NCBI RefSeq assembly: GCF_003268655.1
Contig: NZ_CP029642.1
Location: forward strand, 186,001-250,000
DNA length: 64,000 bases
Direction: 5' to 3'
Origin: Arthrobacter dokdonellae
GTDB taxonomy: Bacteria > Actinomycetota > Actinomycetes > Actinomycetales > Micrococcaceae
Within the stretch, counting starts at the first letter, position 1, and each line of letters starts with the position of its first letter. Below the pieces are notes generated by a model. It did no database searches, was not told the DNA's origin, and saw nothing but the letters and a program-made list of their open reading frames with translations. The translations under genes were made by a program, and so were the position numbers. Positions 29,785-53,506 of this stretch are shown here, in pieces.

Positions 29785-29847
29785 GGTCGAGCCGGTCGAG
29801 ACCGCTGGTCGAGCCTGTCGAGACCGCTGGTCGAGCCTGTCGAGACC
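29785..29847. repeat. Three 22-bp-period copies of GGTCGAGCCTGTCGAGACC
   Basis: The 19-mer occurs at 29785-29803 (one mismatch), 29807-29825 and 29829-29847, each separated by GCT. Its core TCGA-GCCTG-TCGA is an interrupted palindrome. It lies right after the crp stop. A related fragment, CTGTCGAGACC on the minus strand, adjoins the repeat array in purC. Confidence 0.75.
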
Positions 29848-37488: not shown

Positions 37489-39486
37489 GTGACGTCGTGG
37501 ATCGAGGCCGTGCCCGCTTTGGCCGTGACATTGCTGATCCTCGGAGTGCCCGGCGCCGCCGTCTTCGCGGCCCTGCGCGTCCGCGGCCTGGCCGCGATGT
37601 GCCTGACGCCGGCCGTTTCCGTTTCGATCGTTTCCGCCAGCGCCGTGGTGGCGCCCCTGATCCGCCTGCCGTGGGGGTGGCCGGTGGTGCTGCTGGGGAC
37701 CTGTGTCACCGTGACGGGTGCCTGGCTGGCCCGCCGCTTCATCCCGGCACTTAAAGCTGCCGGCCCAGGAAGCTTCACGGGCCGACGCGGGGCCAGCGGC
37801 TCCCGCGGACCAGTGCCGGCCGCCGCCATCGGAGTCCTGGCGGCCCTGGCCATGACCGCCGTGTTCCTGGTGGTGGTCTCACCCAGCCCCGGGCAGTTCA
37901 CCCAGGGCTATGATTCCGTGTTCCACCTGAACGCGACCGAATACGCCGTCCAGACCAGGAACGCGTCCTCCTTCTCCATTTCAAGCTTCATCCTGCCCCC
38001 GGGCAAGTCCGCGTTCTACCCCGCCGCCTGGCACGGGCTGGCAAGCCTTTTGGTGCTCCTGACAGGCATCAGCATTCCGGCGGCCATGAACGTTCTCACG
38101 CTGGCCGTGGCAGGTCTGGTGTGGCCGTTGTCCTGCGTGTTCTTCACCCGAACGCTGTTTGGGGAGAAGCGCAGCGTGCTGTTGGCCGCCGGCGCCCTTT
38201 CTGCGGCCTTCCCGGCCTTCCCCTACCTGCTGCTGCAATACGGCTCCGCCTACCCCAACCTGCTGTCCAACGCGATGGTCCCCGCCGGCGCGGGCCTGGT
38301 CCTGCTGATCATCCGCCCGCCCGCGCGCCCGCCGCTGGAGCCGGCCATGGCGCTGGCCATGGTCGTGCTCTTCCTGCCCGGGACCGCCATGGCCCAGCCC
38401 AACGGCGTCTTCAGCATCCTGCTGGTCCTCACTCCGTTGCTCGTCCACCGGGTCTTTCTGTGGCTGCGCAGGGGATTCCGGCGGGGCCCGCGCCGTGGTT
38501 GGGCCCTGACCGCCGCGCTGGCTGCCTGCGTGGCCGCCGCGGCCGGCGTCCTGCTGTCCCTGCCACAGTTTAGAAGTCTTTTCAACTACACCAGCCCGGC
38601 GTTCCTGCCCTTCTGGCTGGCGCTGGTGCGCAACGTCACCCACGCCCCGGACCCCATCTGGTTCCCCGCCGTCGCCCTGACGCTGCTGGCGCTGTACGGT
38701 GCGTGGACCGCGGCCAGGGTGCACGGAATGCGCTGGCTGCCGGCATCGCTGCTGCTGCTCAGCTTCACCTACCCCCTGGCCGCCGGAACCAACCTGCCCG
38801 TCGCCAACGTGGTCATGGCCCCGTGGTGGGACAACCCCGAGCGCATTGCGGCCCTGATGCCGCTGGCCGCCGTCCCGCTGGCCGCCCTGGGGCTGGGCCG
38901 GTTGCTCGACCGGGTCCGGGCCAGGCGCTTCCGCTTGGTCTCCACCCGCAAGGGAACGACGACGGCGGCAGCGGTCCTCGCCGTCGTCCTCGCCTTCTCC
39001 AACCCGGGCTTTTGGCAGATGGCCGGCGCGGTGGGGCAGATATACAACGTCCCGCCCCAGCCGGACAGGCTGGCCCAGGTGGACGCGCAGGAGCTGTCGC
39101 TGATCCGCCGGCTCGACACGCTCACCACGTCCCGGGACGTCATTGCCAACAACCCGTACAACGGTTCGGCGCTGGCCATGGCGCTGGCGGGCCGGCACAT
39201 GCTCTTCCCCTACAGTTCCCAAGGCGACCTCACCGCGGACCAGTACACGCTGCGCTTCTGGCTCAACCGGGTGGGCAGCGACCAGGCCGTGTGTGCTGCG
39301 GCCAAGCGCCTGGGCGTGACCTACCTGCTGGACTTCGGCACGGACTACATCCCGGCGTTTGACAACCCGAAGTCGTTGTATCCCGGCGTCACCCTGGCTG
39401 GCGGCACCGAGGGCTTCACCCTGGTGGCCAGGGAAGGGCATGCCTCGCTGTACAAGCTCACGCTGTGCGGAGGGGTGCCGATGTAG
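37489..39486 (+). CDS. Polytopic membrane protein, DUF6541-like (GT-C-like layout)
   Basis: This protein has 665 residues from the GTG at 37489, with roughly 12 or more hydrophobic segments and a short extracytoplasmic C-terminal domain (about 510-665). The first large loop has QGYDSVFHLNATEYAVQTRN, and later GKSAFYPAAWHGLASLLV. An acidic residue in the first loop and such aromatic motifs resemble GT-C glycosyltransferases and the DUF6541 family. The catalytic role is not established. The soluble tail contains two Cys (QAVCAAAKR and KLTLCG). Possible function: cell-envelope polysaccharide assembly. Confidence 0.72.
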   Translation: MTSWIEAVPALAVTLLILGVPGAAVFAALRVRGLAAMCLTPAVSVSIVSASAVVAPLIRLPWGWPVVLLGTCVTVTGAWLARRFIPALKAAGPGSFTGRRGASGSRGPVPAAAIGVLAALAMTAVFLVVVSPSPGQFTQGYDSVFHLNATEYAVQTRNASSFSISSFILPPGKSAFYPAAWHGLASLLVLLTGISIPAAMNVLTLAVAGLVWPLSCVFFTRTLFGEKRSVLLAAGALSAAFPAFPYLLLQYGSAYPNLLSNAMVPAGAGLVLLIIRPPARPPLEPAMALAMVVLFLPGTAMAQPNGVFSILLVLTPLLVHRVFLWLRRGFRRGPRRGWALTAALAACVAAAAGVLLSLPQFRSLFNYTSPAFLPFWLALVRNVTHAPDPIWFPAVALTLLALYGAWTAARVHGMRWLPASLLLLSFTYPLAAGTNLPVANVVMAPWWDNPERIAALMPLAAVPLAALGLGRLLDRVRARRFRLVSTRKGTTTAAAVLAVVLAFSNPGFWQMAGAVGQIYNVPPQPDRLAQVDAQELSLIRRLDTLTTSRDVIANNPYNGSALAMALAGRHMLFPYSSQGDLTADQYTLRFWLNRVGSDQAVCAAAKRLGVTYLLDFGTDYIPAFDNPKSLYPGVTLAGGTEGFTLVAREGHASLYKLTLCGGVPM

Positions 39487-39649
39487 CCCTTCACGGACCG
39501 CCGGAAGCAGAAGGAGCCCCCGTCGCCGGAAGCATCGTCAACAATTCCGGTTGACAACATCTGTAGCGGGTTAACACAAACTAGTCATAGCGCATAGAGT
39601 TGACATTAATATTTGCATCGACATGGTGGTTTGCAAGAGGAGCAGCATA

Positions 39650-40912
39650 GTGGGCAGCAGTTTTGGTGACCGTCTCCGGCAGGAGCGCCTGGCGCGGAGC
39701 CTGACCCAGGCGGAACTGGGCGGGGCCCTGTACTCGGCCAGCTACATTTCCCTGCTTGAAAACGGGCGGCGCGAGCCCACCGTTGAAATTATCAAGCAGC
39801 TTTCACGCCAGCTGCAGCTGGCCCCGCATTCCATCGAGGAGTGGGCGCAGCCCGTCTCCACGGAGGAGAGCAGCTACCTCATTGCCTCACTCTATGCCCG
39901 CCAGTGCTGGGACACCCGCGACTACGTAGGCGCAGCCCAAAGCGCAGGCACCGCGGCGGAAAAGGCCCTCGCCAGCCACGACTCGGTCACCTGGTGGAAC
40001 ATGTCCTACCTGCAGGCGAACGCGCTGCTGCGCTGCGGCGGCCAGGAAGACGCCCTGGAGGTCCTGCAAAAACTGCTCAGCCACGCCCTGACCGCGGACA
40101 GCGACGCGCTGACGCTGCGCACCCGGCAAACCATGTCCGCCGCCCTGTTGAGCCTGGGCCGCCTGCCCGAGGCAATCGAGCAGGCCACGCTCGCGGTCGA
40201 AATAGGTTCAGGGGACACCGACGAGGAATACGCCGCCTACCTCATCGGCCTGCAGACGCTGGTGGGGGCCCTCGCCGAAGCAGGCGACCTTGAAGGGGCC
40301 TGGCAGCACTGCCTGACCCTGGCGGATGCCGTCACCGAATCCACGCCGCCGCAGCTGGCCGGGGAAATCCATTGGGTGATCGGCAATGTGGCGTTCATCC
40401 GCCATGACGTCAACCGGGGCCTGTTCCACCACGCACAGGCAGGCCGACTCCTCTCCCCCACCCAGGACCTTTCCCGCTGGGCCCAGTTCAACAAGGCCAC
40501 CGCCTGGGTGCGGCTGGCGGCGGGCGTCGTCGAGCCGGCCACGCTGGAAGCGATCGAACGCAGCGAACTGGCGCATTCCGTGGTGGGCGCCACCCGCACC
40601 GAAGCCCTGGAGGTTTCCCTGCTGCGGGCCCGGTGGCTCTACCTCAACGGCGACATGGCCGCGGCGCTGACCCTGCTGGAAAGCATCGGGGCCGAGCGCG
40701 AGACCCTCGCCACGCATATCGCCGGCGACACCGCGCTGCTGCTGGGCAAGGTGCTCAAGGCGCAGGGCCGCGTCGAGGACGCCTTGGCCGCCTTCAACGA
40801 TGCCAAGGCCATGTTCACGGATGCCGGGGCCACGGACAGGATTTCCCAGGCCATGGAAAGCATTGTGGACATCGAGTCGCTGCGCCGCTCCGGCACCCTG
40901 GGCGGCAGCTAA
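39650..40912 (+). CDS. XRE-family regulator with TPR-like helical repeats
   Basis: This protein has 420 residues from the GTG at 39650, chosen because AGAGGAG lies 7 bases upstream; an ATG at 39623 is also in frame. An N-terminal HTH_3 domain (FGDRLRQERLARSLTQAELG, then ALYSASYISLLENGRREPT) is followed by about 340 residues of alpha-helical pairs resembling tetratricopeptide repeats (e.g. GAWQHCLTLADAV, GRVEDALAAFNDAKAMF). This layout resembles peptide- or protein-responsive regulators. It converges with purC; stops overlap by 4 bp. The upstream 163 bp are AT-richer than the surroundings and contain TTGACA-like -35 candidates. Confidence 0.87.
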   Translation: MGSSFGDRLRQERLARSLTQAELGGALYSASYISLLENGRREPTVEIIKQLSRQLQLAPHSIEEWAQPVSTEESSYLIASLYARQCWDTRDYVGAAQSAGTAAEKALASHDSVTWWNMSYLQANALLRCGGQEDALEVLQKLLSHALTADSDALTLRTRQTMSAALLSLGRLPEAIEQATLAVEIGSGDTDEEYAAYLIGLQTLVGALAEAGDLEGAWQHCLTLADAVTESTPPQLAGEIHWVIGNVAFIRHDVNRGLFHHAQAGRLLSPTQDLSRWAQFNKATAWVRLAAGVVEPATLEAIERSELAHSVVGATRTEALEVSLLRARWLYLNGDMAAALTLLESIGAERETLATHIAGDTALLLGKVLKAQGRVEDALAAFNDAKAMFTDAGATDRISQAMESIVDIESLRRSGTLGGS

Positions 40913-42132
40913 CTGAACGCGGCGCCGGTAAGTCGCTGGTACGCCTCAACGTAGCGTCCCCGGGTGCGTTCGACGACGTCGGCTGGCAGCCGCGGCGGAG
41001 GCGTTTCGCCGTTCTTGTCCCAGCCGGATTCCGGACCAACCAGCCAGTCGCGCACATACTGCTTGTCGAAGCTGGGTTGGGCCCGGCCCGGCTTCCAGAG
41101 CTGCGCATCCCAAAAGCGGGAGGAATCCGGCGTGAGGACCTCGTCGCCGAGGGTGACTTCGCCGGTCGCGGGATCCGTGCCGAACTCCACCTTGGTGTCA
41201 GCCAGGATGATGCCGCGCCCGCGCGCAATCTCCTCCGCCCTCGCATAGATGCCCAGCGTCAGGCGGCGCAGGGTGCCGGCCGCTTCGGCGCCAACGGTAC
41301 CGGCCATGGTTTCAAAGGTGATGTTTTCGTCGTGCGTGCCCACCTCCGCCTTGGCCGACGGCGTGAAGATGGCCGGCTCCAGCCGGGATCCGTCCTGCAG
41401 GCCGGCCGGCAGCGGCAACGCGCATACCGTCTGCCGCTGGCGGTACTCCAGCAGCCCCGATCCGGTCAGGTAGCCGCGCGCGATGCATTCGATGGGGAAC
41501 ATCTCCAGCTTTTTGCAGACCATGGCCCGGCCGGCGACTTCCACCGGCACCCCGTCCTCCACCGTCGTGGCCACCAGGTGGTTGGGGACGTCGAGCTGTT
41601 CGAACCACCACAGGCTCAGCTGCGTCAGGATGCGTCCCTTGTCCGGGATTTCGGTGGCCAGGATGTTGTCAAAGGCGCTGATCCTGTCGCTGGCGACCAC
41701 CAGCACCACGTCGCTGCGCCCGGCGAACGGGTGCCCGCCGGCTGGGCTCGGCGAACCCTGGGTCTCGACAGTCGCATCAGGGCCCACAGCGGCGAGGGTC
41801 CCGGAGCGAGCGCGCGAGCTTCGGGCCGCATCAGGGCCCACAGCGGCGAGGGTCCCGGAGGGAGCTTGCGAGCTCCGGGCCGCATCAGGGCCCACAGCGG
41901 CGAGGGTCCCGGAGCGAGCTTGCGAGCTCCGGGCCGCATCAGGGCCCACAGCGGCGAGGGTCCCGGAGCGAGCTTGCGAGCTCCGGGCCGCATCAGGGCC
42001 CACAGCGGCGAGGGTCCCGGAGCGAGCTTGCGAGCTTCGGGAGCCGCTGGGGACGTAGAGGTCGCGGACCTTGCCGGAGTAGACGTGTTCCCAGCCGGGC
42101 AGGGTAGGGGCGGTGGTTGGTGCCGAAGTCAT
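40909..42132 (-). CDS. purC: SAICAR synthetase with in-frame array of five 18-residue repeats
   Basis: PurC joins CAIR and aspartate using ATP in purine synthesis. The ATG at 42132 has AAGGAAC upstream. Residues 13-28 (GWEHVYSGKVRDLYVP) are the normal N-terminus with the ATP-binding Gly/Lys segment. The family sequence resumes at about 140 with SDVVLVVASDRISAFDNIL. Between them lie about 110 extra residues, five copies of an 18-residue unit containing SGTLAAVGPDA, encoded by five 54-bp palindromic DNA units. The remaining motifs (DKGRILTQLSLWWFEQL, EVGTHDENITFE, LADTKVEFGTDP) look intact. At 407 residues it is about 110 longer than usual. The insertion is at a turn between the first strands, so activity may be kept. 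It follows purD by 10 bp. Confidence 0.92.
   Translation of the reverse strand: MTSAPTTAPTLPGWEHVYSGKVRDLYVPSGSRSSQARSGTLAAVGPDAARSSQARSGTLAAVGPDAARSSQARSGTLAAVGPDAARSSQAPSGTLAAVGPDAARSSRARSGTLAAVGPDATVETQGSPSPAGGHPFAGRSDVVLVVASDRISAFDNILATEIPDKGRILTQLSLWWFEQLDVPNHLVATTVEDGVPVEVAGRAMVCKKLEMFPIECIARGYLTGSGLLEYRQRQTVCALPLPAGLQDGSRLEPAIFTPSAKAEVGTHDENITFETMAGTVGAEAAGTLRRLTLGIYARAEEIARGRGIILADTKVEFGTDPATGEVTLGDEVLTPDSSRFWDAQLWKPGRAQPSFDKQYVRDWLVGPESGWDKNGETPPPRLPADVVERTRGRYVEAYQRLTGAAFS
41774..42043. repeat. Five 54-bp palindromic units inside purC
   Basis: Units start at 41774, 41828, 41882, 41936 and 41990 and differ at a few positions. Each unit contains GGGCCCACAGCGGCGAGGG, then CCCGGAGC and its inverse GCTCCGGG around GAGCTTGCGA, so a hairpin can form. 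After the last unit the sequence GGGAGCCGCTGGGGA follows, which completes an outer stem with AGCGGC. The same core and the same ending occur in the array at 51329-51432. A fragment of the GGTCTCGACAG repeat adjoins at 41761. Confidence 0.92.
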
Positions 42133-42142
42133 CTGGTGTTCC

Positions 42143-43435
42143 TTACGCCTGGGCGGCCGTACCGGCCACGGTGATTTCGCCGCGCGCGGCCTTGGCTGCA
42201 ATGTCGCACCGGTACTGGCCGCCTTCGAGCGAGATCTGTTCCATGCCCGCATACGCGCGTTCGCGGGCGTCCTCCAGGTCCGCGCCCAAGCCGACCACCG
42301 CGAGAACGCGCCCTCCGGCGCTGACGGTGTTGCCGGCGTCGTCCACGGCCGTGCCCGCGTGCAGCACATGGACGCCGTCCAGGCGGTTGGCCTTCTTCAG
42401 GCCGCGGATGCGGTCGCCGGTGCGTGGAGCGCCCGGATAGTTGGCGCTGGCCAGGACGACGGCGACGGCGGTCTCGGGTGCCCAGCGGAGTTCGTCGGCC
42501 TCGTCGAGCTGGCCCTTGGCCGCGGCAAGCAGGAGGCTGCCCAGGGGTGTCTTGAGGCGGGCCAGGACGGCCTGCGTTTCCGGGTCCCCGAAGCGGGCGT
42601 TGAACTCGATGACCCGGGTGCCTCGGCTGGTCAGGGCCAGTCCGCAGTACAGGACGCCGGTGAATGGCGTGCCACGGCGCGCCATTTCGTCGATGGTGGG
42701 TTGGGCGACTCGGTCGATGACCTCCTCGACCAGGCTTGCCGGCACCCATTCCAGCGGCGAGTAGGCACCCATGCCGCCGGTGTTGGGCCCTTCGTCGCCG
42801 TCAAAGATGCGCTTGAAGTCCTGGGCCGGCGCCAGCGGGACCACCGTGCGGCCGTCGGCCAGCACAAAGAGGGAAACCTCGGGTCCGTCGAGGTATTCCT
42901 CGATGACCACCGTGCCCCCGGCGTCAAAGCAGCTTTGCGCGTGGGTCAGGGCCTCGTCGCGGTCATCGGTGACCACCACGCCCTTGCCCGCTGCCAGGCC
43001 GTCGTCCTTGACCACATAGGGTGCGCCGAAGGCGTCCAGGGCATCGGCCGCCTCCTGCGCGGTGGCGGCCACCATGGCCATGGCGGTGGGGACCTGGGCC
43101 TCGGCCATGATGGCCTTGGCGAACGCTTTGGAGGCCTCCAACTGGGCGGCCTCGCGGCTGGGCCCGAATACCGGGATGCCGGCGGCCTGCACGGCGTCGG
43201 ACACGCCTGCGGCCAGCGGCGCCTCGGGGCCCACCACCACCAGGTCGCTCTCCAGCCTCAGCGCGAGGGCCGTCACGGCCGCAGGATCGTTGGCGTCGAT
43301 GCTGTGCGTGGGCACAATGGCGGCGATCCCCGCGTTTCCGGGTGCCGCATGGACCTCCGTGACGCTTGGGTCGCTCAACAACGATCGGACAATGGCATGT
43401 TCGCGGCCGCCCGGGCCAATCACTAGGACCTTCAC
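42143..43435 (-). CDS. purD: Phosphoribosylamine-glycine ligase (GAR synthetase)
   Basis: This ATP-grasp enzyme makes glycinamide ribonucleotide in purine synthesis. The 430-residue product has the family N-terminus KVLVIGPGGREHAIVRSL. The ATP-grasp core includes APYVVKDDGLAAGKGVVV and VIEEYLDGPEVSLF. The signature RGTPFTGVLYCGLALT and the metal-binding RVIEFNARFGDPE are also present. The GTG start at 43435 follows family alignment; no strong ribosome-binding site is seen. It lies 10 bp upstream of purC, giving a purD-purC operon. Confidence 0.96.
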   Translation of the reverse strand: MKVLVIGPGGREHAIVRSLLSDPSVTEVHAAPGNAGIAAIVPTHSIDANDPAAVTALALRLESDLVVVGPEAPLAAGVSDAVQAAGIPVFGPSREAAQLEASKAFAKAIMAEAQVPTAMAMVAATAQEAADALDAFGAPYVVKDDGLAAGKGVVVTDDRDEALTHAQSCFDAGGTVVIEEYLDGPEVSLFVLADGRTVVPLAPAQDFKRIFDGDEGPNTGGMGAYSPLEWVPASLVEEVIDRVAQPTIDEMARRGTPFTGVLYCGLALTSRGTRVIEFNARFGDPETQAVLARLKTPLGSLLLAAAKGQLDEADELRWAPETAVAVVLASANYPGAPRTGDRIRGLKKANRLDGVHVLHAGTAVDDAGNTVSAGGRVLAVVGLGADLEDARERAYAGMEQISLEGGQYRCDIAAKAARGEITVAGTAAQA

Positions 43436-43692
43436 GCTACAAGCGTACTTGGCTTGGCGTCCGGGTCCGTAAACTGCCGGTCCGCCGGGGACGGCGACCG
43501 TTCCGGGCCGGCCGCATGGCGTCAACGCAGCCTCGGAACCGCGCCGTAACAGGGGCTGACGGCCATTGCCGCCGCGAGGCGGACTTGATAGCTTTGCGAA
43601 TGGATGGCGCCCGTCCGGAGCCATCCCGGGAACGACAACCGAGCACCGGACCTTTCGGCCCAGGCGGTCCGCAACTTCAGGGGGACAGGTAC

Positions 43693-46083
43693 ATGCACGC
43701 AAGCACCCGTGGTTTCGTTTGGCGCCGATCTTTGGCCTGCGCGGTGGCGGCGCTCCTGGCCAGCGGCACTGTTGCCGCCGGCGGCGCCTCGGCAGCACCC
43801 CAAGAGGGCCCGACGGCGGTGGCACCGTCCAGCGCCACTGCGGCCCCCACGGCATCGCCCGCCGGCAACGCCCCATCGGCCACCACGGCGGCCACGGACC
43901 CCGCACCGGCAGCTCCGACGTCGGCAGTCTCTTCCAGCGCCCCTGCGTCTCCCACGGCAACGGCTCCCGCCCCCAGCGCCACGGCGGACCCGTCCCCCAC
44001 AAAACGAGCAACGCAACCGGCCGGGACTCTCCCGGCCGGCCTGGAAGCGGCCCTCAAGCGCGATCTTGGCAAGTCGGTGGCCGAGTTCGAGGCCAATGGC
44101 GAGCTGGCCAGGGGAGCCGCCGCCGTCGAAGCTGCGGTCGGCAAGTCGGACCCCGCGTCCGTGGTTTCCGTGGATGGTGACTCCATCAAGGCGGTGACCA
44201 CGGATGCCGCCGCTGCCAGAAAAGCCGCCGGCACCGCAAAGATCACCGTAATCCCGGAGGCGGCCTCGCCGGCCCCGGGAAAGGTTGACCCAGGCGGCGT
44301 GGAAGCACTGTTCGCGGACTACGCCAAAGTTTTCGGAGCCAAGAACCTGCAGTCCATCATGGTCGATGCGTCTGGCCGTTATGTCATCCGCACCGGTGAC
44401 ACTGCGGCCAAGCCGCCGGCGCCGGCGTCCCCGCCCCGAACGGCAACCGCCCCCGCTGCCTCGGCGGCCAGGGTGCCCACTGCCGCCCCCGTGGCGTCCG
44501 CAGCGTCCGTAGCGGACTTTGCCGCAAAGTACAGGAACGTGGTCGTGAAGCCAGCGGACGGCCACGTCGCTGCCTTCGCCGGCGACGTGGTGGACGGCCA
44601 GGGCTACGCGTCCCATGTTTCCGGCAACGAGTATGAGGCGTGCAGCATCGGCTGGAACGGTTTCAACAGGGCCGGTCGGCCCGCCGTCATCTCCGCCGGC
44701 CACTGCACCCTAGACGGTTCCCTGAAGAATCCGCTGCTGACCGACCCTGCCCACGACGCCGCCGCCAGGCCCCCAATCTCCGGCATCGCCTTCCTGGGCA
44801 GCCTGGGCACTTTCGGCTTCTCCCAGTTCGGAGGCCCAGGCAACAGCCCCGTCATCGGCTTCGACCCCAAGGCCCCAAGCCTCGCTGGCGTCGGCAACAT
44901 TGGCACCGATGTCTCCGTCATTGACAACATCACCGCAGGCCTCAACCAGCTTCCCTTGGCGACACACTGGATGGACCCGGCCAACCTCCCGGCCGCCGCC
45001 ACCAGGGTCACAGGGGTGTCAACGGCCATCCCGGGCGCCGACATCTGCAAGTCGGGGCGGACCACGGGGTGGACCTGCGGCACCGTCACGGGACGGGGAC
45101 TCTTCCTCGTCGCGGGCGTCCAGAACCCGAGTAGCGTCTCGGACGTCCGCGGCGTGCGCGGCTTTGCTTCCACCCTCCCCAGCGACCGTGGCGATTCCGG
45201 CGCCCCCGTTATCTCAGGCACTACCGCCGTCGGCATCCTGAGCGCCGGCGACGGCACCACGACCTACAGCACGGACCTGGTGGACGCCCTGGCCCACACC
45301 GGCGGCTACACGGTCAGGATCTTCGTCAACACCCCCACGTTGGCCACCCCGGCCAACGGCACCATCCACCGGTCAACCACCATCACCGGCAGGGTCGCCG
45401 CGGCGCCGGCCGGCACCACCGTTTCCGCGACCATCGGCGGCAGGACCGTCACGGTTCCCCTTGGCGCCAACGGCACGTGGTCCATCAAGGCCCCCAACAC
45501 TTTCGGCACGTTCAAGCTCACCGCCCGCGCCAAGAGCGGCTTCAGCACCTCCGCTTTGGCCACCTTCAACGTCACTATAGTCAAGCAGACACTGGCTGCG
45601 CCCGCCTTCACCGCCCCGGCAGCGAACGGCTCGGCTGCAGCACCGGTCAGGACCATCACGGGTACAGGGAAGCCGGGCGCCACCATTGTCCTTTCCGGCG
45701 CCGTGACAGGCACCGCGCACGTCGGCACCAACGGCAGGTGGTCCGTGGCAGCGCCCAAGGCACTGGCCCCTGGACGCTACGCCCTTACCGCCAGGCAGTC
45801 CCTGAAGGACTGGAACACCTCGACGGCGGCCACCATCAGGTTCCGGGTGGTTGCGCCCGTGCGGGCGGCCGTCCCGCTCTCCGGCGGCGCGGTGACCGTT
45901 GTCGAGGCCGGCGTCACGGCGGCCCAGGGCTCGGCGGCCGGTGGCGCCTTGGCCGAAACCGGCGTCCCGGGCACGCTTGGCGGCTTTGGCGCGGCGGGCG
46001 GTGGACTGCTGCTGGCCGGCGGCGCACTCCTGCTGTTCCGGCGCCGCGACAAGGAACGGCCCGATACGGAACAGGAACACTGA
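43693..46083 (+). CDS. Secreted, sortase-anchored S1 serine protease with pro-domain and Ig-like domains
   Basis: This exported protease has 796 residues. It starts with a signal peptide (RSLACAVAALLASGTVAAGG, ending ASA). Then comes an Ala/Pro/Thr-rich stretch and a pro-domain similar to those of alpha-lytic protease and streptogrisins (about 110-290). The chymotrypsin-fold catalytic domain has His337 in SAGHC, a candidate Asp406 in GTDVSVID and Ser502 in GDSGAPVIS. Two Ig-like domains (about 540-730) follow, and the C-terminus has LAETG, a hydrophobic helix and a basic tail, a class E sortase signal. It is probably displayed on the cell wall. The downstream lipoprotein resembles a second, detached pro-domain. 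Confidence 0.9.
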   Translation: MHASTRGFVWRRSLACAVAALLASGTVAAGGASAAPQEGPTAVAPSSATAAPTASPAGNAPSATTAATDPAPAAPTSAVSSSAPASPTATAPAPSATADPSPTKRATQPAGTLPAGLEAALKRDLGKSVAEFEANGELARGAAAVEAAVGKSDPASVVSVDGDSIKAVTTDAAAARKAAGTAKITVIPEAASPAPGKVDPGGVEALFADYAKVFGAKNLQSIMVDASGRYVIRTGDTAAKPPAPASPPRTATAPAASAARVPTAAPVASAASVADFAAKYRNVVVKPADGHVAAFAGDVVDGQGYASHVSGNEYEACSIGWNGFNRAGRPAVISAGHCTLDGSLKNPLLTDPAHDAAARPPISGIAFLGSLGTFGFSQFGGPGNSPVIGFDPKAPSLAGVGNIGTDVSVIDNITAGLNQLPLATHWMDPANLPAAATRVTGVSTAIPGADICKSGRTTGWTCGTVTGRGLFLVAGVQNPSSVSDVRGVRGFASTLPSDRGDSGAPVISGTTAVGILSAGDGTTTYSTDLVDALAHTGGYTVRIFVNTPTLATPANGTIHRSTTITGRVAAAPAGTTVSATIGGRTVTVPLGANGTWSIKAPNTFGTFKLTARAKSGFSTSALATFNVTIVKQTLAAPAFTAPAANGSAAAPVRTITGTGKPGATIVLSGAVTGTAHVGTNGRWSVAAPKALAPGRYALTARQSLKDWNTSTAATIRFRVVAPVRAAVPLSGGAVTVVEAGVTAAQGSAAGGALAETGVPGTLGGFGAAGGGLLLAGGALLLFRRRDKERPDTEQEH

Positions 46084-46135
46084 TGGGACGGTCATCCAGT
46101 TCATGCAGGACGTTGACACTGGACAGGACGTGGCA

Positions 46136-46699
46136 ATGGAAGAAATGAACAACAGGAAGCTGGCGGCCGTCCTCGCCGCCGCGAGCATGGCAGGAGTACT
46201 GGCCATGGGCGGATGCGCCCCCCAGCAGTCCCCGGGCGACACACCGGGCGCCCAGCAGGGCGGACCGCAAACCGGTTCAACTGCTCCTGCCACTGAGCAG
46301 TCCACCGAACTGCTGATGCTCAACGACCAGCTGAAGGCGGCGCTCGGCAGCGCCTACTCCGACTCCTGGATCGAAGGCGGGCGGCTCCACGTGGCCATCA
46401 CCACACGGGAGGCTGAAAAGGCGGTTTCCCGCGCTGGCGCCGTCCCGAAGCTGGTCACCTTCGACGTCGCACAGCTGGAGGCGGCGCTGCGGGCCGTGGC
46501 CGCCTGGCAGGCATCGCTGCCACCGGCGCAGGCCTCTGCCATCCACAGAATCATCAGCGACGGCCGCAACGGCACCGTCACCATCTACGTGGACACCACT
46601 CAGCTTGACGCCATTTCCGGCGCGGCCGCCACGGACAGACCAGCCGGCAACGTGCCCCTGCTCATCAAGGAATCCGCGGGCCTGCCCACACCCCAGTAG
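46136..46699 (+). CDS. Lipoprotein resembling a free-standing S1 protease pro-domain
   Basis: This protein has 187 residues from the ATG at 46136; an ATG at 46145 is equally possible. A signal peptide (KLAAVLAAASMAGVLAMGGC) ends in a lipobox, so the mature protein is lipid-anchored outside the membrane. After a Gln/Thr-rich linker, the folded part has a strand-helix-strand pattern: AYSDSWIEGGRLHVAITTRE, then AVPKLVTFDVAQLEAALRAV, then ISDGRNGTVTIYVDTTQLDA. This is like the alternating units of alpha-lytic-protease pro-domains. No catalytic motif is present. It lies about 50 bp after the protease gene, so it may act as an inhibitor or folding chaperone. This last point is inference. Confidence 0.65.
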   Translation: MEEMNNRKLAAVLAAASMAGVLAMGGCAPQQSPGDTPGAQQGGPQTGSTAPATEQSTELLMLNDQLKAALGSAYSDSWIEGGRLHVAITTREAEKAVSRAGAVPKLVTFDVAQLEAALRAVAAWQASLPPAQASAIHRIISDGRNGTVTIYVDTTQLDAISGAAATDRPAGNVPLLIKESAGLPTPQ

Positions 46700-46765
46700 A
46701 AAACCGGACCACTGTTGACGGCGCCGCCGCGCAGCCTTCCGCCCTTTAGTCGCTAGGATGACACC

Positions 46766-47770
46766 ATGATCCAGACCTTCCGGGCGCACGACGCCGTTGA
46801 ACTCGCCGTCCTGGAACGCAGCGGATTTGTCGAGTCCCGGCACGTTGGTTCCGCCGTCGTGGTAGCCGCCGACGGATCCGTGGTCACGTCCCTGGGCGCC
46901 GTCGACTCCCCCATCTTCCCGCGCTCCGCCGTCAAGCCCTTCCAGGCACTTGCGGCGATGCAGTCCGGAGTTCCGCTGCGCGGGGCGCAGGTGGCCATCG
47001 CCGCCGGCAGCCACACCGGGTCGCTGGAGCACATGGACATTGTCTCCGGCATGCTCAAGGCGGCCGGTCTCACCGAGAACCATCTGGGCTGCCCCGCCGC
47101 CTGGCCTTCGGATTCTGAGGCCCGCGCGTGGCTGCTGCGCACGGACCGGGGCAAGTCCAAGCTGGCCATGAACTGCTCCGGCAAGCATGCTGCCTTCCTG
47201 TGGGCCTGCAAGGAAAATGGCTGGAACACGGCCGGGTACCTGGAACCGAACCATCCCATGCAGCGCGCCGTGCGCCGGGCACTGGAGGAATACACGGGCC
47301 AGGCGATCCGCCATACGGGAGTCGACGGCTGTGGCGCCCCTGTCATGTCGGTCACGCTCAAGGGCCTGGCCCGGGCCTTCACCACCCTGGCCAAGGCGCC
47401 GTCGGACAAGTCCGCCAACGCGCGCGCCGCGACAGTGGCCACCTCGATGCTCGACTACCCGTGGGCCGTGGAGGGACACGGCCGGCCCAACACCGTGGTC
47501 ATGGAGGACCTGGGCGTCCTGGCCAAACTAGGGGCCGAGGGCGTGTTGGCGATGGCCACCCCCGCCGGGGCCTCTGTGGCCGTGAAGATGCTCGACGGCA
47601 ACGGCCGCGCCGCCACCCTGGTGGCGCTGACGCTGCTGGCGGCGTCAGGGGCGTTGGACGTCCCCGAAGTGGCCGCGGTGCTCGGCAAGGTGGTCCCGCC
47701 CATCATGGGTGGCGGCAGGCCCGCGGGCAGTCTCCGCCTAGGCCAAGCCGTCAGCGCCCTCCTGAACTAA
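46766..47770 (+). CDS. Asparaginase, Rhizobium type II family
   Basis: This 334-residue enzyme belongs to the family of R. etli-type asparaginases, unrelated to the E. coli type. Recognisable parts are PRSAVKPFQALAAMQSG with the SxxK-like Ser-Lys pair, GSHTGSLEHMDIVSGML, MNCSGKHAAFLWACKENGWN with a conserved Cys and Lys, and GVDGCGAPVMSVTL. No signal peptide is present, so it should act in the cytosol, turning asparagine into aspartate and ammonia. Aspartate is the co-substrate of PurC, but a link to the nearby purine genes is only a possibility. Confidence 0.9.
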   Translation: MIQTFRAHDAVELAVLERSGFVESRHVGSAVVVAADGSVVTSLGAVDSPIFPRSAVKPFQALAAMQSGVPLRGAQVAIAAGSHTGSLEHMDIVSGMLKAAGLTENHLGCPAAWPSDSEARAWLLRTDRGKSKLAMNCSGKHAAFLWACKENGWNTAGYLEPNHPMQRAVRRALEEYTGQAIRHTGVDGCGAPVMSVTLKGLARAFTTLAKAPSDKSANARAATVATSMLDYPWAVEGHGRPNTVVMEDLGVLAKLGAEGVLAMATPAGASVAVKMLDGNGRAATLVALTLLAASGALDVPEVAAVLGKVVPPIMGGGRPAGSLRLGQAVSALLN

Positions 47771-47778
47771 GGGGCACC

Positions 47779-48132
47779 GTGGTTTCCCGACGCCGGATTG
47801 ACATTTCCGAGGGCAGGGCCGCCCTTGACGCCTGGAAGCAGGGGGGCGTGCCCCGCGCCGTGACGGCCATGGCCGTGCGCTACTCCCTGGAGGAACTTGC
47901 CGCCCGCGCCCCCGGCAATTCCGTCGAGGTGCGCGTGCCGCCCTTCGGCGTAACCCAGTGCGTGGCCGGGCCCCGGCATACGCGGGGCACGCCGCCCAAC
48001 GTGGTGGAGTGCGACGCCGGAACCTGGCTTGCGCTGGTGACCGGACGGACGGGCTGGGGTGACGCCGTCGAACGCGGCCTGGTGGCGGCTTCCGGGCTGC
48101 GGGCCGACCTTTCGGGGGAACTGCCACTCTAG
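47779..48132 (+). CDS. Sterol-carrier-like protein next to purF (Rv0807 type)
   Basis: This 117-residue protein resembles the sterol carrier (SCP2-like) fold found in actinobacteria at this position. It has an N-terminal helix (IDISEGRAALDAWKQGGV), then RAVTAMAVRYSLEELAARAP, a strand with SVEVRVPPFGVTQCV and a final ECDAGTWLALVTGRTGW. The order of this gene, purF, purM and DUF3073 matches mycobacteria, where the first gene is also of unknown function. The GTG at 47779 lies 8 bp after the asparaginase stop, indicating one transcription unit. The ligand is unknown. Confidence 0.83.
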   Translation: MVSRRRIDISEGRAALDAWKQGGVPRAVTAMAVRYSLEELAARAPGNSVEVRVPPFGVTQCVAGPRHTRGTPPNVVECDAGTWLALVTGRTGWGDAVERGLVAASGLRADLSGELPL

Positions 48133-48154
48133 CGGTGCGGGTACCCTTGTAGGT

Positions 48155-48484
48155 ATGACTTCCCAGCCCGTTGACCCCTCAGCCGACGCCGTGCAGGCAC
48201 CGGCTCCGCGCCGCCGGCTCACGGTGCGCCGCGCGCCCAAGTACGTCCCCTTCATGGTTGCCGGCGCCCTGCTGGGCGTGATTGTGGCAGCGATTCTTGC
48301 CTACGCCTCGAACGGTGCGGAGCAGTTTGGCTCCGGCAGTGTCTTTGGCTTTTTCGCCGTGCTGCTGATGGTTCCGGGTGTTGGCCTGGGCGCGGTGGCG
48401 GCCCTGGTCATCGACCGCAGGAGCATCCGGCGCACCGAAACGGCCGTGGTCGAGTCCGTTCCGGAGGATGGAACCGGCGACTGA
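48155..48484 (+). CDS. Small membrane protein with two helices
   Basis: This 109-residue protein has a basic N-terminus (RRRLTVRRAPKYV) and two transmembrane segments (VPFMVAGALLGVIVAAILAY and VFGFFAVLLMVPGVGLGAVA). A charged C-terminal tail (DRRSIRRTETAVVESVPED) follows. The first Arg-rich segment before the helix suggests an N-in topology. No function is known to me. It starts 22 bp after the sterol-carrier-like gene and lies 62 bp before purF. Confidence 0.8.
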   Translation: MTSQPVDPSADAVQAPAPRRRLTVRRAPKYVPFMVAGALLGVIVAAILAYASNGAEQFGSGSVFGFFAVLLMVPGVGLGAVAALVIDRRSIRRTETAVVESVPEDGTGD

Positions 48485-48546
48485 CGATGCCCGACGGCTG
48501 CGGGCATGCGTTAGAGCCCGCCGCCATTACATGAGACAATTTTCTC

Positions 48547-50112
48547 GTGGCACGCGGAGACGGAAAACTATCACATGACCTTTTGCCCGGCGAAAAGGGA
48601 CCCCAAGATGCCTGCGGTGTCCTGGGGATCTGGGCGCCCGGTGAAGAAGTGGCAAAACTCACCTATTACGGGCTGTACTCCCTGCAGCACCGTGGCCAGG
48701 AATCGGCGGGAATCGCCACCAGCGACGGCTCGCGCATCAGCGTCTACAAGGACATGGGCCTCGTTTCCCAGGTCTTTGACGAACCGACCCTGAACACCCT
48801 GACCGGGCACATCGCCGTCGGCCACTGCCGGTATTCCACCACGGGATCCTCCAACTGGGCCAACGCCCAGCCCACACTGGGCGCCACGGGAAGCGGCACC
48901 GTCGCGCTCGCGCACAACGGCAACCTGACCAACTCCGCCGAACTGTACGACATGGTGGTGGCCACCGACGGCGTCCCCACGTCGGGCGAGATGGCACAGG
49001 GCAACACCTCCGACACCGCGCTGGTCACCACCCTGCTCAAGGGCAAGGAAGGCCGCTCGCTCGAGGAAACGGCCATCGAGCTGCTGCCCAAGATCCACGG
49101 CGCCTTCAGCTTTGTCTTCATGGACGAGCACACGCTCTACGCGGCACGCGACCCGCACGGCGTCCGTCCGCTGGTTTTGGGCCGGCTCGAAAACGGCTGG
49201 GTGGTCGCCTCCGAGGGCGCCGCGCTCGCCACCATGGGCGCGAGCTTCATCCGCGACATCGAGCCCGGTGAATTCATCGCCATCGACGAAGATGGCGTGC
49301 GCACCCAGCGCTTCGCCCCGGCCACCCCCGCCGGCTGCGTCTTCGAATATGTCTACCTGGCCCGCCCGGACGCCACCATTGCAGGCCGGTCCGTCTACGA
49401 ATCCCGCGTGGAGATGGGCCGCCAGCTGGCACGCGAAAACAGCGCCCAGGCGGACCTGGTCATCCCCGTACCTGAATCCGGAACTCCGGCCGCCATCGGC
49501 TATGCCGAACAGTCGGGCATTCCGTTCGCCCACGGTTTCGTCAAGAACGCCTATGTGGGACGCACCTTCATCCAGCCCAGCGAGACGCTGCGCAAGCTCG
49601 GCATCCGGCTCAAGCTCAACGCGCTGGAGTCAGTGATCCGCGGCAAGCGGATTGTGGTGGTGGACGATTCCATTGTCCGAGGCAACACTCAGCGCGCCGT
49701 GGTGCGCATGCTGCGTGAGGCCGGCGCCGCCGAAGTCCACGTGAAAATTTCTTCCCCGCCGGTACGGTGGCCCTGCTTCTACGGGATCGATTTCGCCTCG
49801 CGCGCCGAGCTGATCGCCAACGGCGCCGCCGTGGATGAGATCAGCAAGTCGATCGGCGCCGACTCCCTCGCCTACATCTCCGAGGACGGCATGATCGACG
49901 CCACCCTCCAGCCGCGCGAACAGCTGTGCACTGCCTGCTTCACGGGCACCTACCCGATTGAGCTGCCGTCCAGCGACCGCCTCGGCAAGAACCTGCTCGA
50001 GCGCACCAAGCCGGCGGACAGCACCACCTCCACGGGCTGCGATCCGGGACCGGACGCGGAACTGGAATCCATCCTGACCGACCAAGACCGTTCTGCCGCA
50101 GACGGCTCCTAA
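48547..50112 (+). CDS. purF: Amidophosphoribosyltransferase
   Basis: This enzyme catalyses the committed first step of purine synthesis, moving ammonia from glutamine to PRPP. The 521-residue product starts at the GTG at 48547. A 22-residue propeptide precedes Cys23 in ACGVLGIWAP, the glutaminase nucleophile, as in the B. subtilis-type enzyme that is matured by cleavage. The phosphoribosyl site is the PRPP loop KRIVVVDDSIVRGNTQRA near residue 370. C-terminal Cys residues (LCTACFTGTYP) fit a 4Fe-4S cluster site. purM follows after 38 bp. No strong ribosome-binding site precedes the start. Confidence 0.96.
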   Translation: MARGDGKLSHDLLPGEKGPQDACGVLGIWAPGEEVAKLTYYGLYSLQHRGQESAGIATSDGSRISVYKDMGLVSQVFDEPTLNTLTGHIAVGHCRYSTTGSSNWANAQPTLGATGSGTVALAHNGNLTNSAELYDMVVATDGVPTSGEMAQGNTSDTALVTTLLKGKEGRSLEETAIELLPKIHGAFSFVFMDEHTLYAARDPHGVRPLVLGRLENGWVVASEGAALATMGASFIRDIEPGEFIAIDEDGVRTQRFAPATPAGCVFEYVYLARPDATIAGRSVYESRVEMGRQLARENSAQADLVIPVPESGTPAAIGYAEQSGIPFAHGFVKNAYVGRTFIQPSETLRKLGIRLKLNALESVIRGKRIVVVDDSIVRGNTQRAVVRMLREAGAAEVHVKISSPPVRWPCFYGIDFASRAELIANGAAVDEISKSIGADSLAYISEDGMIDATLQPREQLCTACFTGTYPIELPSSDRLGKNLLERTKPADSTTSTGCDPGPDAELESILTDQDRSAADGS

Positions 50113-50150
50113 GCCCCCGGCTCCCAAGAACCTTGCCAGAAAGAGACGCC

Positions 50151-51296
50151 ATGACCAACGCCTCCCAGCAATCCGCCACCGCAATCACCTACGCCAGCGC
50201 CGGTGTCGACACCGAGGCCGGGGACCGCGCCGTCGAACTCATGAAGGAAGCCGTCAAGGCCACGCACGGCCCGTCCGTGGTGGGCGGGTTTGGCGGTTTC
50301 GCGGGACTGTATGACGTCTCAAGGTTGCTGAGCTACAAAAAGCCGTACCTGGCCACGTCCACCGACGGCGTGGGCACCAAGGTGGCCATCGCCCAGGCCA
50401 TGGACATCCACGACACCATCGGCTTTGACCTGGTGGGCATGGTGGTGGACGACATCGTGGTGGTGGGCGCCGAGCCGCTGTTCATGACCGACTACATCGC
50501 CACCGGCAAGGTGGTCCCGGAGCGCGTGGCGGACATTGTCCGCGGCATCGCCTCCGCCTGCACCGTGGCCGGAACCGCATTGGTGGGCGGCGAAACCGCA
50601 GAACACCCGGGCCTGCTGGCGCCCGACGAGTACGACGTCGCCGGCGCCTGCACCGGCGTGGTCGAGGCGGACCTGCTGCTCGGACCCGCGCGCGTGCGGG
50701 CAGGCGACGTCATCATCGGCATGGCCTCCTCCGGCCTGCACTCCAACGGCTACTCGCTGGTGCGCCGCGTCATCAACCACGCCGGCTGGGCCCTGGACCG
50801 CCAGGTGTCCGAATTTGGCCGCACCCTGGGCGAGGAACTCCTCGAACCCACCCGCGTGTACGCCGCCGACTGCCTGGACCTGACCCGTTTCCTGCCCGTC
50901 ACGGCCGAAAAGGCCGTCCGCGGCTTCAGCCACGTCACCGGCGGGGGCCTGGCCGCCAACCTGGCCCGCGTGTTGCCGCAGGGCCTCGTCGCGACCGTGG
51001 ACCGTTCGACGTGGAGCCTGCCGGCCATCTTCAGCCTCGTGTCACAGCTGGGCAATGTGCCGCTGGCCGACCTGGAGCGCACCTTGAACCTGGGCGTGGG
51101 CATGGTGGCCGTGGTTTCCGCGGACGCCGCCGACGCCGCCGTGGAACGCCTGAACGCACGCGGCCTGCCGTCGTGGGTCATGGGCACCGTCTCCGCTGAG
51201 TCCTTCGACGCCGACCGCTCCGGCACCGACTACACGCAGGGCGCCAAGGGCGTCGACGGCGGGGCCGTCCGCCTGGTGGGCAGCTACGCGGCTTGA
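50151..51296 (+). CDS. purM: Phosphoribosylformylglycinamidine cyclo-ligase (AIR synthetase)
   Basis: This enzyme closes the imidazole ring using ATP, giving AIR. The ATG at 50151 follows AGAAAGAGA; the frame is open further back to 50133 but without support. The 381-residue product has TYASAGVDTEAGDRAVELMK, the family opening, then TSTDGVGTKVAIAQ with the catalytic Asp/Gly loop. DLVGMVVDDIVVVGAEPLFM and LVGGETAEHPGL are the nucleotide-binding motifs of the PurM fold, followed by GMASSGLHSNGYSLVR. It is the last gene of the asparaginase-purF-purM run and is followed by palindromic repeats. Confidence 0.96.
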   Translation: MTNASQQSATAITYASAGVDTEAGDRAVELMKEAVKATHGPSVVGGFGGFAGLYDVSRLLSYKKPYLATSTDGVGTKVAIAQAMDIHDTIGFDLVGMVVDDIVVVGAEPLFMTDYIATGKVVPERVADIVRGIASACTVAGTALVGGETAEHPGLLAPDEYDVAGACTGVVEADLLLGPARVRAGDVIIGMASSGLHSNGYSLVRRVINHAGWALDRQVSEFGRTLGEELLEPTRVYAADCLDLTRFLPVTAEKAVRGFSHVTGGGLAANLARVLPQGLVATVDRSTWSLPAIFSLVSQLGNVPLADLERTLNLGVGMVAVVSADAADAAVERLNARGLPSWVMGTVSAESFDADRSGTDYTQGAKGVDGGAVRLVGSYAA

Positions 51297-51328
51297 TCCT
51301 TCGGCGGCATTTTTGCTTTGAAGCCGCT

Positions 51329-51432
51329 GGGCCCACAGCGGCGAGGGACCCTGGCCGAGGAACGAGGCTAGGGAGCCGCTGGGCCCACAGCGGCGAGGGA
51401 CCCTGGCCGAGGAACGAGGCTAGGGAGCCGCT
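51329..51432. repeat. Two 52-bp units related to the purC array
   Basis: Exact tandem units lie at 51329-51380 and 51381-51432. Each starts GGGCCCACAGCGGCGAGGG as in purC and ends GGGAGCCGCT, followed after unit two by GGGGA. The middle (CCTGGCCGAGGAACGAGGC) differs from the purC units. The outer AGCGGC/GCCGCT arms remain, so the unit keeps hairpin potential. The array lies 33 bp after the purM stop. Confidence 0.9.
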
Positions 51433-51518
51433 GGGGAACAACAAAATCCCCGCCCGTCGCAGGGGCCTTTCGGCTTCGCGTCGTGCAGGGTTTGTTGCAT
51501 TTGGTGGACTAGACGCTC

Positions 51519-51749
51519 CTAGCCGATGCGGCGGGAGTCTGCCTCGTCGTCGTCCTCAAACTGATCCGCATATTTGTCTTCATACGCCGAGTAATCAGGC
51601 TCTGCAGGAGCCTCAAGGTGATGGCTCGGGGCTCGCCGGGTTGTCCCTCCGAGCTCTTTCTGCAGAGCTGAATAGTCAGTGTTCGGGGAGTAATACTTGA
51701 TGTCCCGAGCCTGCTTGGTTGCCTTCGCCTTTTGACGGCCGCGCCCCAT
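51519..51749 (-). CDS. DUF3073 protein, 76 residues
   Basis: This is a small conserved actinobacterial protein of unknown role, found beside purM in mycobacteria too (Rv0810c type). The typical N-terminus MGRGRQKAKATKQARDIKYY is present, followed by SPNTDYSALQKELGG and an acidic tail (EDDDEADSRRIG). The ATG at 51749 has GGGGG-type purines upstream but no clear ribosome-binding site. It converges with purM across the repeat array. Confidence 0.9.
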   Translation of the reverse strand: MGRGRQKAKATKQARDIKYYSPNTDYSALQKELGGTTRRAPSHHLEAPAEPDYSAYEDKYADQFEDDDEADSRRIG

Positions 51750-51897
51750 GGCGTGACCCCCTTTTTACACTTGGACCGGAGGTGGTCGCTCGGGCTGAGA
51801 GCGAGGCTCCGGAATATTCGGTCAATTTGTCGTACTCCTAGATTACATGAGATCGGCACCGGCTGCGCCCGCGCTTGGATCGTTGGGCCATGGGCGG

Positions 51898-51931
51898 CCA
51901 ATATTTTTCCGCGACGCCGGCGAAATATTGG
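51898..51931. promoter_or_regulatory. Inverted repeat CCAATATTT-N16-AAATATTGG
   Basis: Two 9-bp perfect arms lie 133 bp upstream of the septum-domain gene. An RNA hairpin or a regulator site is possible; no known regulator was recognised. Confidence 0.45.
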
Positions 51932-51949
51932 ATAGAGTCGGGAGGATGG

Positions 51950-51963
51950 GGGAGTTAACTCCC
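51950..51963. promoter_or_regulatory. Palindrome GGGAGTTAACTCCC
   Basis: This is a perfect 14-bp palindrome 100 bp upstream of the septum-domain gene. No known operator class was recognised. Confidence 0.4.
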
Positions 51964-52063
51964 GCAGGGGGAACTTTATTTGCGCCCAGGGCGAAGCTGA
52001 ATTCCTTTTGTCCAGGCAATAAATGGTGCCGGCCGCCGGCGCAGCAGGGAAGGCTAGTTCTTC

Positions 52064-53506
52064 ATGACCGAACACGACAAGGCAAACGATCACTCATCGG
52101 GGGAACCTCCCGCGGAGGGCACCGTGCCGGTTGCGGATGTCCCCGCCACCGACGCTTCCGAGGGGGCCGACGCGACGCAGGAAACCCAGATTTCCGCAGC
52201 CGACTTCGACTTTGCCGAACCTGAACTCGGGGAAGCCAAGATCAGCGCGGAAGCGGCCGACAGCGTCGACCTGAAGAAGGTGGAAGCCGAGGCGGCCGAA
52301 GTTGAACGTGAGGCCGCACGATCCACGCAGCTCGGCGCTGCCGAGGTCATCTCCTCCGTGCCACCGGCGGCCGTCGACTTCGACATGCCCAAATCCGGGC
52401 ACGGCCGGGATACCGACGCGACCGCCGTGACGCACGACGCCGGCCAGCCGCCTTCCGCGGCCGCCTCACCATCGGCTCCCCCTGTTCCCGAGGCCGACGA
52501 GCCTGCTGCAGCTGAGGGGCCCGCTGCAGCTGAGGCGCCTGCCGCCGCAGAACACCCGGACGCACCCGGGGTCGGGCCGCACCGCGTCGGCCGCGGCATT
52601 GACGACGGTTCCGGCTGGCGCCGCCCGGAGACGCCGTGGGAACAGCCCACCACGCAGTGGCAGCAGTCGGCCACGCCCTGGCAGCCCAAGGCCAACGCCT
52701 GGCAGTCGCCTGCCCAGCATGCCCAGGGCGAGGCGGACGCGGCAGCAGCCAGCCTGGCCGCGGGCGGACCAGCCACCGGAGCGCCCGCGGGCGAACAGGC
52801 TTCGGGCGAACAGGCTTCGGGCGAACAGGCTTCGGGCGAACAGAGCGCGGACGCCTTGCCGCCGGTGCGGCCCGGCGTCCCGCCCATCCCCCCGATGCCC
52901 GGCCAGACCGGCTCCGGCCAGCCCGCCTCCAACCAAAGCTGGAATCAGGCGCCTGCGCCCGACGCCGGCAAACAACAGGGAAACAAGGGCAAGCTGCTGA
53001 TCGTCCTCGGCGTGGTCGTGGTCGGACTCGTCCTCGTCGCGCTGTTGGTCTGGCTGCTGCTGGGCCTTTTCTCCGGCAACTCCACGGCCGGGTCCCCCAC
53101 CGCGGTCGCGGGCGCCACGTCGGGTGCCTCCACCAACCCGGACGACGTCATCGTGCCGCGGGCCTCGCCGGAGGACTGGCTGACCGGTGACTGCCTGCGC
53201 GGCTATGTCGGCATCAACCAGGCCGCCGACGTGGTGGTGTGCAGCAGCCTGCATTCGGCCCAGGTGGTGGGTTCCTCGGTTCTCACGGAGTCAACCGCGT
53301 TTCCGGGCGATGATGTGCTCAAGGCCAAGGCCGCGGCGGTGTGCAAGGCCGTGCAGTACACGGATGCAACCAAGGCCTACGCGGGCTTGAAGGAATTCAA
53401 GGCCTACCCTTCGGAGAGCACGTGGGATACCGCCAACGACCGCCGGATTGACTGCATCGTCGTGGACCCGACGGGCGATCACCTGAAGACGTCGCTGATC
53501 CAATAG
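52064..53506 (+). CDS. Single-pass membrane protein with septum-formation domain
   Basis: This 480-residue protein has a long acidic, low-complexity cytosolic part (1-300). It includes GEQAS repeats (about 243-262, four 15-bp DNA units starting at 52790) and Pro-rich stretches. One transmembrane helix lies at about 310-335 (LLIVLGVVVVGLVLVALLVW). The extracytoplasmic domain begins near residue 370 with WLTGDCLRGYVG and has four Cys in total, matching the septum-formation domain (PF13845-like). It might take part in division or envelope assembly; there is no direct evidence. GGAAGG lies 10 bases upstream of the start. Confidence 0.75.
   Translation: MTEHDKANDHSSGEPPAEGTVPVADVPATDASEGADATQETQISAADFDFAEPELGEAKISAEAADSVDLKKVEAEAAEVEREAARSTQLGAAEVISSVPPAAVDFDMPKSGHGRDTDATAVTHDAGQPPSAAASPSAPPVPEADEPAAAEGPAAAEAPAAAEHPDAPGVGPHRVGRGIDDGSGWRRPETPWEQPTTQWQQSATPWQPKANAWQSPAQHAQGEADAAAASLAAGGPATGAPAGEQASGEQASGEQASGEQSADALPPVRPGVPPIPPMPGQTGSGQPASNQSWNQAPAPDAGKQQGNKGKLLIVLGVVVVGLVLVALLVWLLLGLFSGNSTAGSPTAVAGATSGASTNPDDVIVPRASPEDWLTGDCLRGYVGINQAADVVVCSSLHSAQVVGSSVLTESTAFPGDDVLKAKAAAVCKAVQYTDATKAYAGLKEFKAYPSESTWDTANDRRIDCIVVDPTGDHLKTSLIQ

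Follow-up and report, generated by a model that had tools for sequence, protein, structure and literature searches.

A dispersed palindromic element and its putative tandem amplification within purC of Arthrobacter dokdonellae

The purC gene of Arthrobacter dokdonellae contains an in-frame array of five 54-bp units, and sequence comparison indicates that this array is a tandem amplification of a dispersed element, here called R1, of about 59 nt with two nested, covarying stems. The reading that we consider highly probable is that a copy of R1 entered SAICAR synthetase at its strand 2/3 turn, likely before the split from the sister species, was then amplified to five units and now forms a surface loop, disordered and tolerated by the enzyme. 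Palindromes that encode protein have been best documented in Rickettsia and Wolbachia, both of them difficult experimental organisms. R1 would represent such a family in free-living, GC-rich actinobacteria and would bring the insertion of such an element into a conserved enzyme within reach of experiment; the purC site displays several stages across species (short turn, one copy, eroded copy and five copies), and the exact abutment of R1 to stop codons offers a sharp handle on site choice or retention by such elements.

The purC array and the R1 element

An earlier note on this DNA had described five 54-bp units lying in frame and free of stops in purC, and the description stands: Tandem Repeats Finder returned a period of 54, 5.0 copies and 97% matches (41773-42041) with a score of 503, against a top score of 78 among 40 dinucleotide shuffles of the window, by which we mean the whole 64,000-nt stretch analysed. 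Any two units agree at 50-54 of 54 positions and two are identical. The array lies in frame between SGKVRDLYVP and SDVVLVVASDRISAFD and, when translated, would yield peptides such as SGTLAAVGPDAAR. The gene product matches PF01259 with an E-value of 5.6e-71, exceeds the NCBIfam purC cut-off and is the only full-length PurC encoded in the genome.

Table 1. Features of the window discussed in the text.
Feature	Position	Strand	Remarks
purC, SAICAR synthetase with insert, 407 aa	40909..42132	-	open frame throughout; Pfam PF01259, NCBIfam purC
SGKVRDLY segment, N-terminal, residues 19-26, 5' of the insert	42055..42078	-	kept in congeners
Five-unit 54-bp array, residues about 31-120	41773..42042	-	unit starts 41773, 41827, 41881, 41935, 41989
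R1 element, full length	41995..42053	-	covariance-model match, 80.7 bits
Remnant at 3' edge of array, from second palindrome family; reads CTGTCGAGACCC in the purC sense	41760..41771	-	assigned by eye
Second R1 array of the window, period 52 bp, about 2 units	51322..51437	-	directly past the end of a plus-strand gene

The repeat motif recurs at other places in the genome. Thirteen copies, one per place and with that of purC included, share the invariant ends TCCCC and GTGGGCC and two nested stems; the palindrome named in the earlier note is present but forms the inner part of this larger hairpin. In the alignment, 90.0% of cells were paired, compared with 73.2% in shuffles and 36-44% when the partners were slid, the structure having been drawn on the same 13 copies, which favours the drawn over the slid versions, and 39 double changes were counted against 13.8; the covariation is thus strong. 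The element is 58-70 nt long, and its predicted RNA folding is strong for both the single element (z -2.60) and the whole purC array (z -2.36). Depending on the frame, 1 to 15 of 111 elements contain a stop, the sense frames being close to shuffles and the antisense frames having fewer stops than shuffles.

A covariance model of R1 gave 56 matches at E<=0.01 in the genome, several of which are units of one array; within the purC array a single match is full-length (Table 1) and the remaining units match over the inner part. The element was also found in 23 of 23 genomes of the genus, with at least 4 to 76 matches each at E<=1e-6, and in at least 37 of 197 sampled genomes of the family, representing 8 genera out of 32, with this genus contributing 11 of the 37; these are lower bounds because scoring covered a subset of the candidates. 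The element is not peculiar to purC: it is genus-wide and occurs in other genes too. A known RNA family was rejected for R1 over positions 39000-53000 of the window, where Rfam gave 0 matches at E<=0.1. At 29785-29847, a 22-bp palindromic unit (GGTCGAGCCTGTCGAGACCGCT) is repeated three times in tandem shortly past a gene-end TAG and a TCCCC; it belongs to the second palindrome family, the same that is found at the purC turn of G011 and G004.

The insert in PurC and its history in the genus

The core of PurC was confidently modelled by AlphaFold, with a pLDDT of at least 90 for 277 residues, whereas the insert is predicted to be disordered (pLDDT <50 for residues 37-130). The modelled fold is that of M. 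abscessus PurC (Foldseek 6yya, target TM 0.85), with strands at residues 14-19, 23-28 and 142-147, and the predicted disordered stretch falls between the last two, in agreement with the surface turn proposed from the sequence. The insert adds about 70-110 residues at this turn, depending on the yardstick: the excess is 110 residues over M. abscessus PurC (116 here and 6 there between matching positions), about 100 over the shortest congeners (128 aa vs 25-28 aa) and 70 over the sister species (128 vs 58). The SGKVRDLY segment, which we take to have a role in ATP binding, is conserved among congeners and is part of the modelled fold. The core is under purifying selection: of 22 relatives, the 20 that gave a finite dS had dN/dS values of 0.05-0.21, and in the other two dS was saturated; 5' of the insert a firm ratio is unattainable because that stretch comprises only 17 codons.

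We compared 22 congeners with A. dokdonellae (G000), giving 23 species with one genome each, and counted the length of the turn from the G preceding KVRDLY to the start of SDRISAFD. The same conserved insert in all close relatives, which the earlier note had envisaged as the mark of an ordinary domain, is not what was found: the turn is 128 residues long in G000 and 25-62 in the congeners, R1 sequence occurs there in 7 of the 23 species (G000, G022, G012, G017, G021, G010 and, weakly at 25.8 bits, G001), and G011 and G004 have a different palindrome, of the second family, at this site. We accordingly rejected the reading as an ordinary conserved domain of PurC. The PurC N-terminus and turn of L005, titled Sporosarcina beigongshangi, are identical to those of the congener G014, so its title or assembly looks wrong.

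A tree built from three proteins and rooted at the midpoint places G000 and G022 as sisters, whereas the remaining species with R1 in purC, five in number, group in a second clade, and therefore either R1 entered twice or one old entry was followed by many losses. The sister carries a single degenerate copy (48.9 bits) with a 3' flank resembling that of G000; the two copies have diverged, and their shared ancestry, most likely on the sequence evidence, rests on position and the similar flank. Given that single copy, the five near-identical units of G000 are most simply the result of a later, local amplification, and the fivefold expansion looks lineage-specific. Arrays of R1 elsewhere have spacings of 52, 54, 56 and 57, so that a need to keep the frame open is the probable reason why the purC unit is a multiple of three, through selection. 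Since R1 is GC-rich and nearly stop-free and the unit amounts to 18 codons, the gene stays open.

The sequence of events that we favour would begin with a copy of R1, moving as DNA, that entered purC at the strand 2/3 turn, most likely before the split from the sister species. In the lineage of A. dokdonellae it would then have been amplified to five tandem units, presumably through slippage or unequal recombination, and the extra residues would form a disordered surface loop, near neutral and tolerated by an enzyme that is probably made at full length and active.

It is also conceivable, although improbable, that the array is a selected module of variable copy number that tunes the activity, stability or interactions of PurC, or slows its translation through hairpins in the mRNA. 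The repeats do stay in frame, the predicted folding is strong and unit number differs among intergenic arrays too, but the turn is free to vary in length and sequence between species, with other palindromes at this site in G011 and G004, and the insert is predicted to be disordered. We give very little credence to a purC that is decaying, split by the insert or translated from a start past it, such that the repeats would lie outside the working enzyme. The insert is long for the PurC family and GTG codons occur in the first core strand past it; against this, the frame is open, the core is under purifying selection, the N-terminal segment 5' of the insert is conserved and modelled into the fold, no methionine lies between insert and core, AAGGA stands 7 nt 5' of the upstream ATG and the genome has no second full purC. 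Tandem repeats are prone to misassembly, but a count of five produced in this way is hardly credible since the units are not all identical, the genome is in two contigs and the sister species has a single related copy.

R1 beside stop codons and inside other genes

The usual place of R1 is the first base past a stop codon, in the sense of the gene. With a strict pattern set, a stop triplet directly preceded R1 in 10 of 19 copies of the genome and 17 of 27 copies from others, and the seven neighbouring offsets gave stop totals of 0 and 1. In larger sets, R1 started right past a stop in 14 of 30 loci of the genome (counted from 41, the rest having failed the end criterion or been omitted) and in 49 of 81 loci of relatives (counted from 87, with G004 excluded). 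For 40 of these 63, the upstream frame that leads into the stop was open and resembled coding sequence, compared with 0 and 1 for the other two phases. The abutting stops were TAG in 42, TAA in 14 and TGA in 7 cases, while other gene ends had 141, 83 and 125, respectively.

The G004 genome departs from this pattern: only 2 of its 20 strict R1 copies abut stops and 16 are preceded by CGC, with R1 nested in a second palindrome in the order ggtctcgc, R1, ggctcgacc. Seven of its R1 copies, on seven contigs, are identical over 59 nt. At the loci L192-L211 of this genome the R1 copies nested in the second palindrome share their flanks, as would be expected had the two spread together as a composite unit.

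The abutment to stop codons would be explained either by directed entry or by the survival of harmless copies. A more far-reaching proposal, which we regard as doubtful, is that R1 is an active, stop-codon-seeking palindrome family of the Micrococcaceae, whose insertion past stops is directed by a non-RAYT mechanism, and that its in-frame copies act as ready-made disordered linkers with a preferred frame, which make housekeeping enzymes longer through tandem expansion.

A minority of R1 copies lie in frame within conserved genes, namely purC, siroheme synthase, Lhr, HrpA and an Fpg/Nei-type glycosylase, the last three in relatives. A scan blind to frame flagged 2 of 41 loci in the genome, siroheme synthase (cysG) and MenD, and 4 of 86 distinct loci in relatives, HrpA, Lhr twice (L281, L314) and one doubtful case; in G004 it flagged 1 of 20 loci, an N-terminal case. 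The codon-usage scan did not flag purC because the array units occupy its flank. The CynX-like transporter of G004 is among the cases found blind to frame. A second Lhr site (L189), the glycosylase, a thiolase and PaaC were instead found because their proteins resemble the purC insert, a route biased towards one frame. NCBIfam and Pfam supplied the names of the host proteins, the Fpg/Nei models being under their cut-offs except for the Pfam domains, and the R1 model confirmed the element in 11 of 11 loci given to it. In Arthrobacter sp. ERGS1:01 the R1-bearing helicase is annotated as a single gene.

In siroheme synthase the R1-bearing linker has 55 residues, compared with 36 in the sister G022, and the DNA alignment shows one insertion block. 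Of the 23 genomes, 14 had a measurable linker; the 13 besides A. dokdonellae range from 31 to 53 residues, and it is only by comparison with the 36 of the sister that 55 is long. The in-frame R1 of MenD was not counted as a clean insertion because the linker itself is variable in the 11 other genomes where the search pattern located it, and in 11 of 23 loci that pattern found nothing. The locus L152 of the genome holds two R1 matches about 0.8 kb apart (1501-1558 and 2249-2307; C1 ~84513 and ~85261), one of them in the menD linker frame. The menD frame of L269 (G006) also ends in this linker region, where a short repeat, WLKQWLEHWLEH, is present, and the gene is possibly broken there.

Several candidates were set aside. 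In L187 (G003) and L188 (G009) R1 stands at the start of paaC or immediately ahead of it and shares an open frame with that gene, and in the CynX-like transporter it is near the protein start; as these copies are possibly external to the real genes, they were left uncounted. The R1 of the thiolase in G020 is a C-terminal extension, and L284, flagged as intragenic, was doubted as R1 there comes after a TAG. HrpA, Lhr and the transporter, whose sense insertions were detected without regard to frame, all read R1 as NTC-CCC, as does purC; with three genes beside purC, a preferred reading frame is a lead only.

Comparison with known palindromic elements

Bacterial MITEs (Correia, ERIC and others) are described in PMC2229807 and PMC10969869 as small, non-autonomous, structured and sometimes fused in frame. 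R1 resembles them in being small and structured and in its in-frame fusions, but neither target-site duplications nor terminal repeats common with an autonomous parent were recognised, by eye in the flanks of the 20 R1 copies of G004 and with a parent search limited to PF01797.

The GTAG- and CGTC-tagged REPs are, according to the portion of PMC3733652 available, palindromes mostly 3' of genes, some intragenic, and the ends of the GTAG REPs are said to supply TAG stops to flanking ORFs. R1 is likewise mostly downstream of coding regions (the 14 of 30 and 49 of 81 loci above), but its TAG stops show no preference for a preceding G; the base before the stop triplet was A in 6, T in 3 and C in 5 of the 14 cases in the genome, and C in 22, A in 17, G in 8 and T in 2 of the 49 in relatives. 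A GTAG or CGTC tag was rejected on this ground and since 13 of 13 copies end in TCCCC and GTGGGCC; in the same portion of that paper Actinobacteria are not among the phyla given for these REPs. A RAYT-driven REP was also rejected since the RAYT Y1 transposase (PF01797) is absent from the genome; it is present in 2 of 23 genomes of the genus, and its earlier loss is possible. In the open-access literature searched, as far as its text was available, no R1-like element is described for Arthrobacter or its family; Arthrobacter livingstonensis appears in a table of predicted REPs in the available part of PMC12306157, with which R1 may possibly overlap.

A further likeness is to the Rickettsia palindromic elements (RPE) and the Wolbachia palindromic repeats, which the accessible text of PMC2229807 and PMC10969869 describes as dispersed, intergenic and also fused in frame within conserved protein genes. 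R1 shares this habit, in purC, cysG, Lhr, HrpA and the glycosylase as well as between genes, and the resemblance to Rickettsia suggested in the earlier note thus applies in kind, as an in-frame dispersed palindrome. It does not make R1 an RPE: at 58-70 nt it lies outside the RPE length of 105-146 or about 150 bp given in the same sources, so that the two are set apart by description rather than by sequence, and R1 belongs to another phylum, abuts stop codons and builds tandem arrays. The likeness holds as an analogy only, and R1 in purC is a variant of an already known kind, the intragenic palindromic elements.
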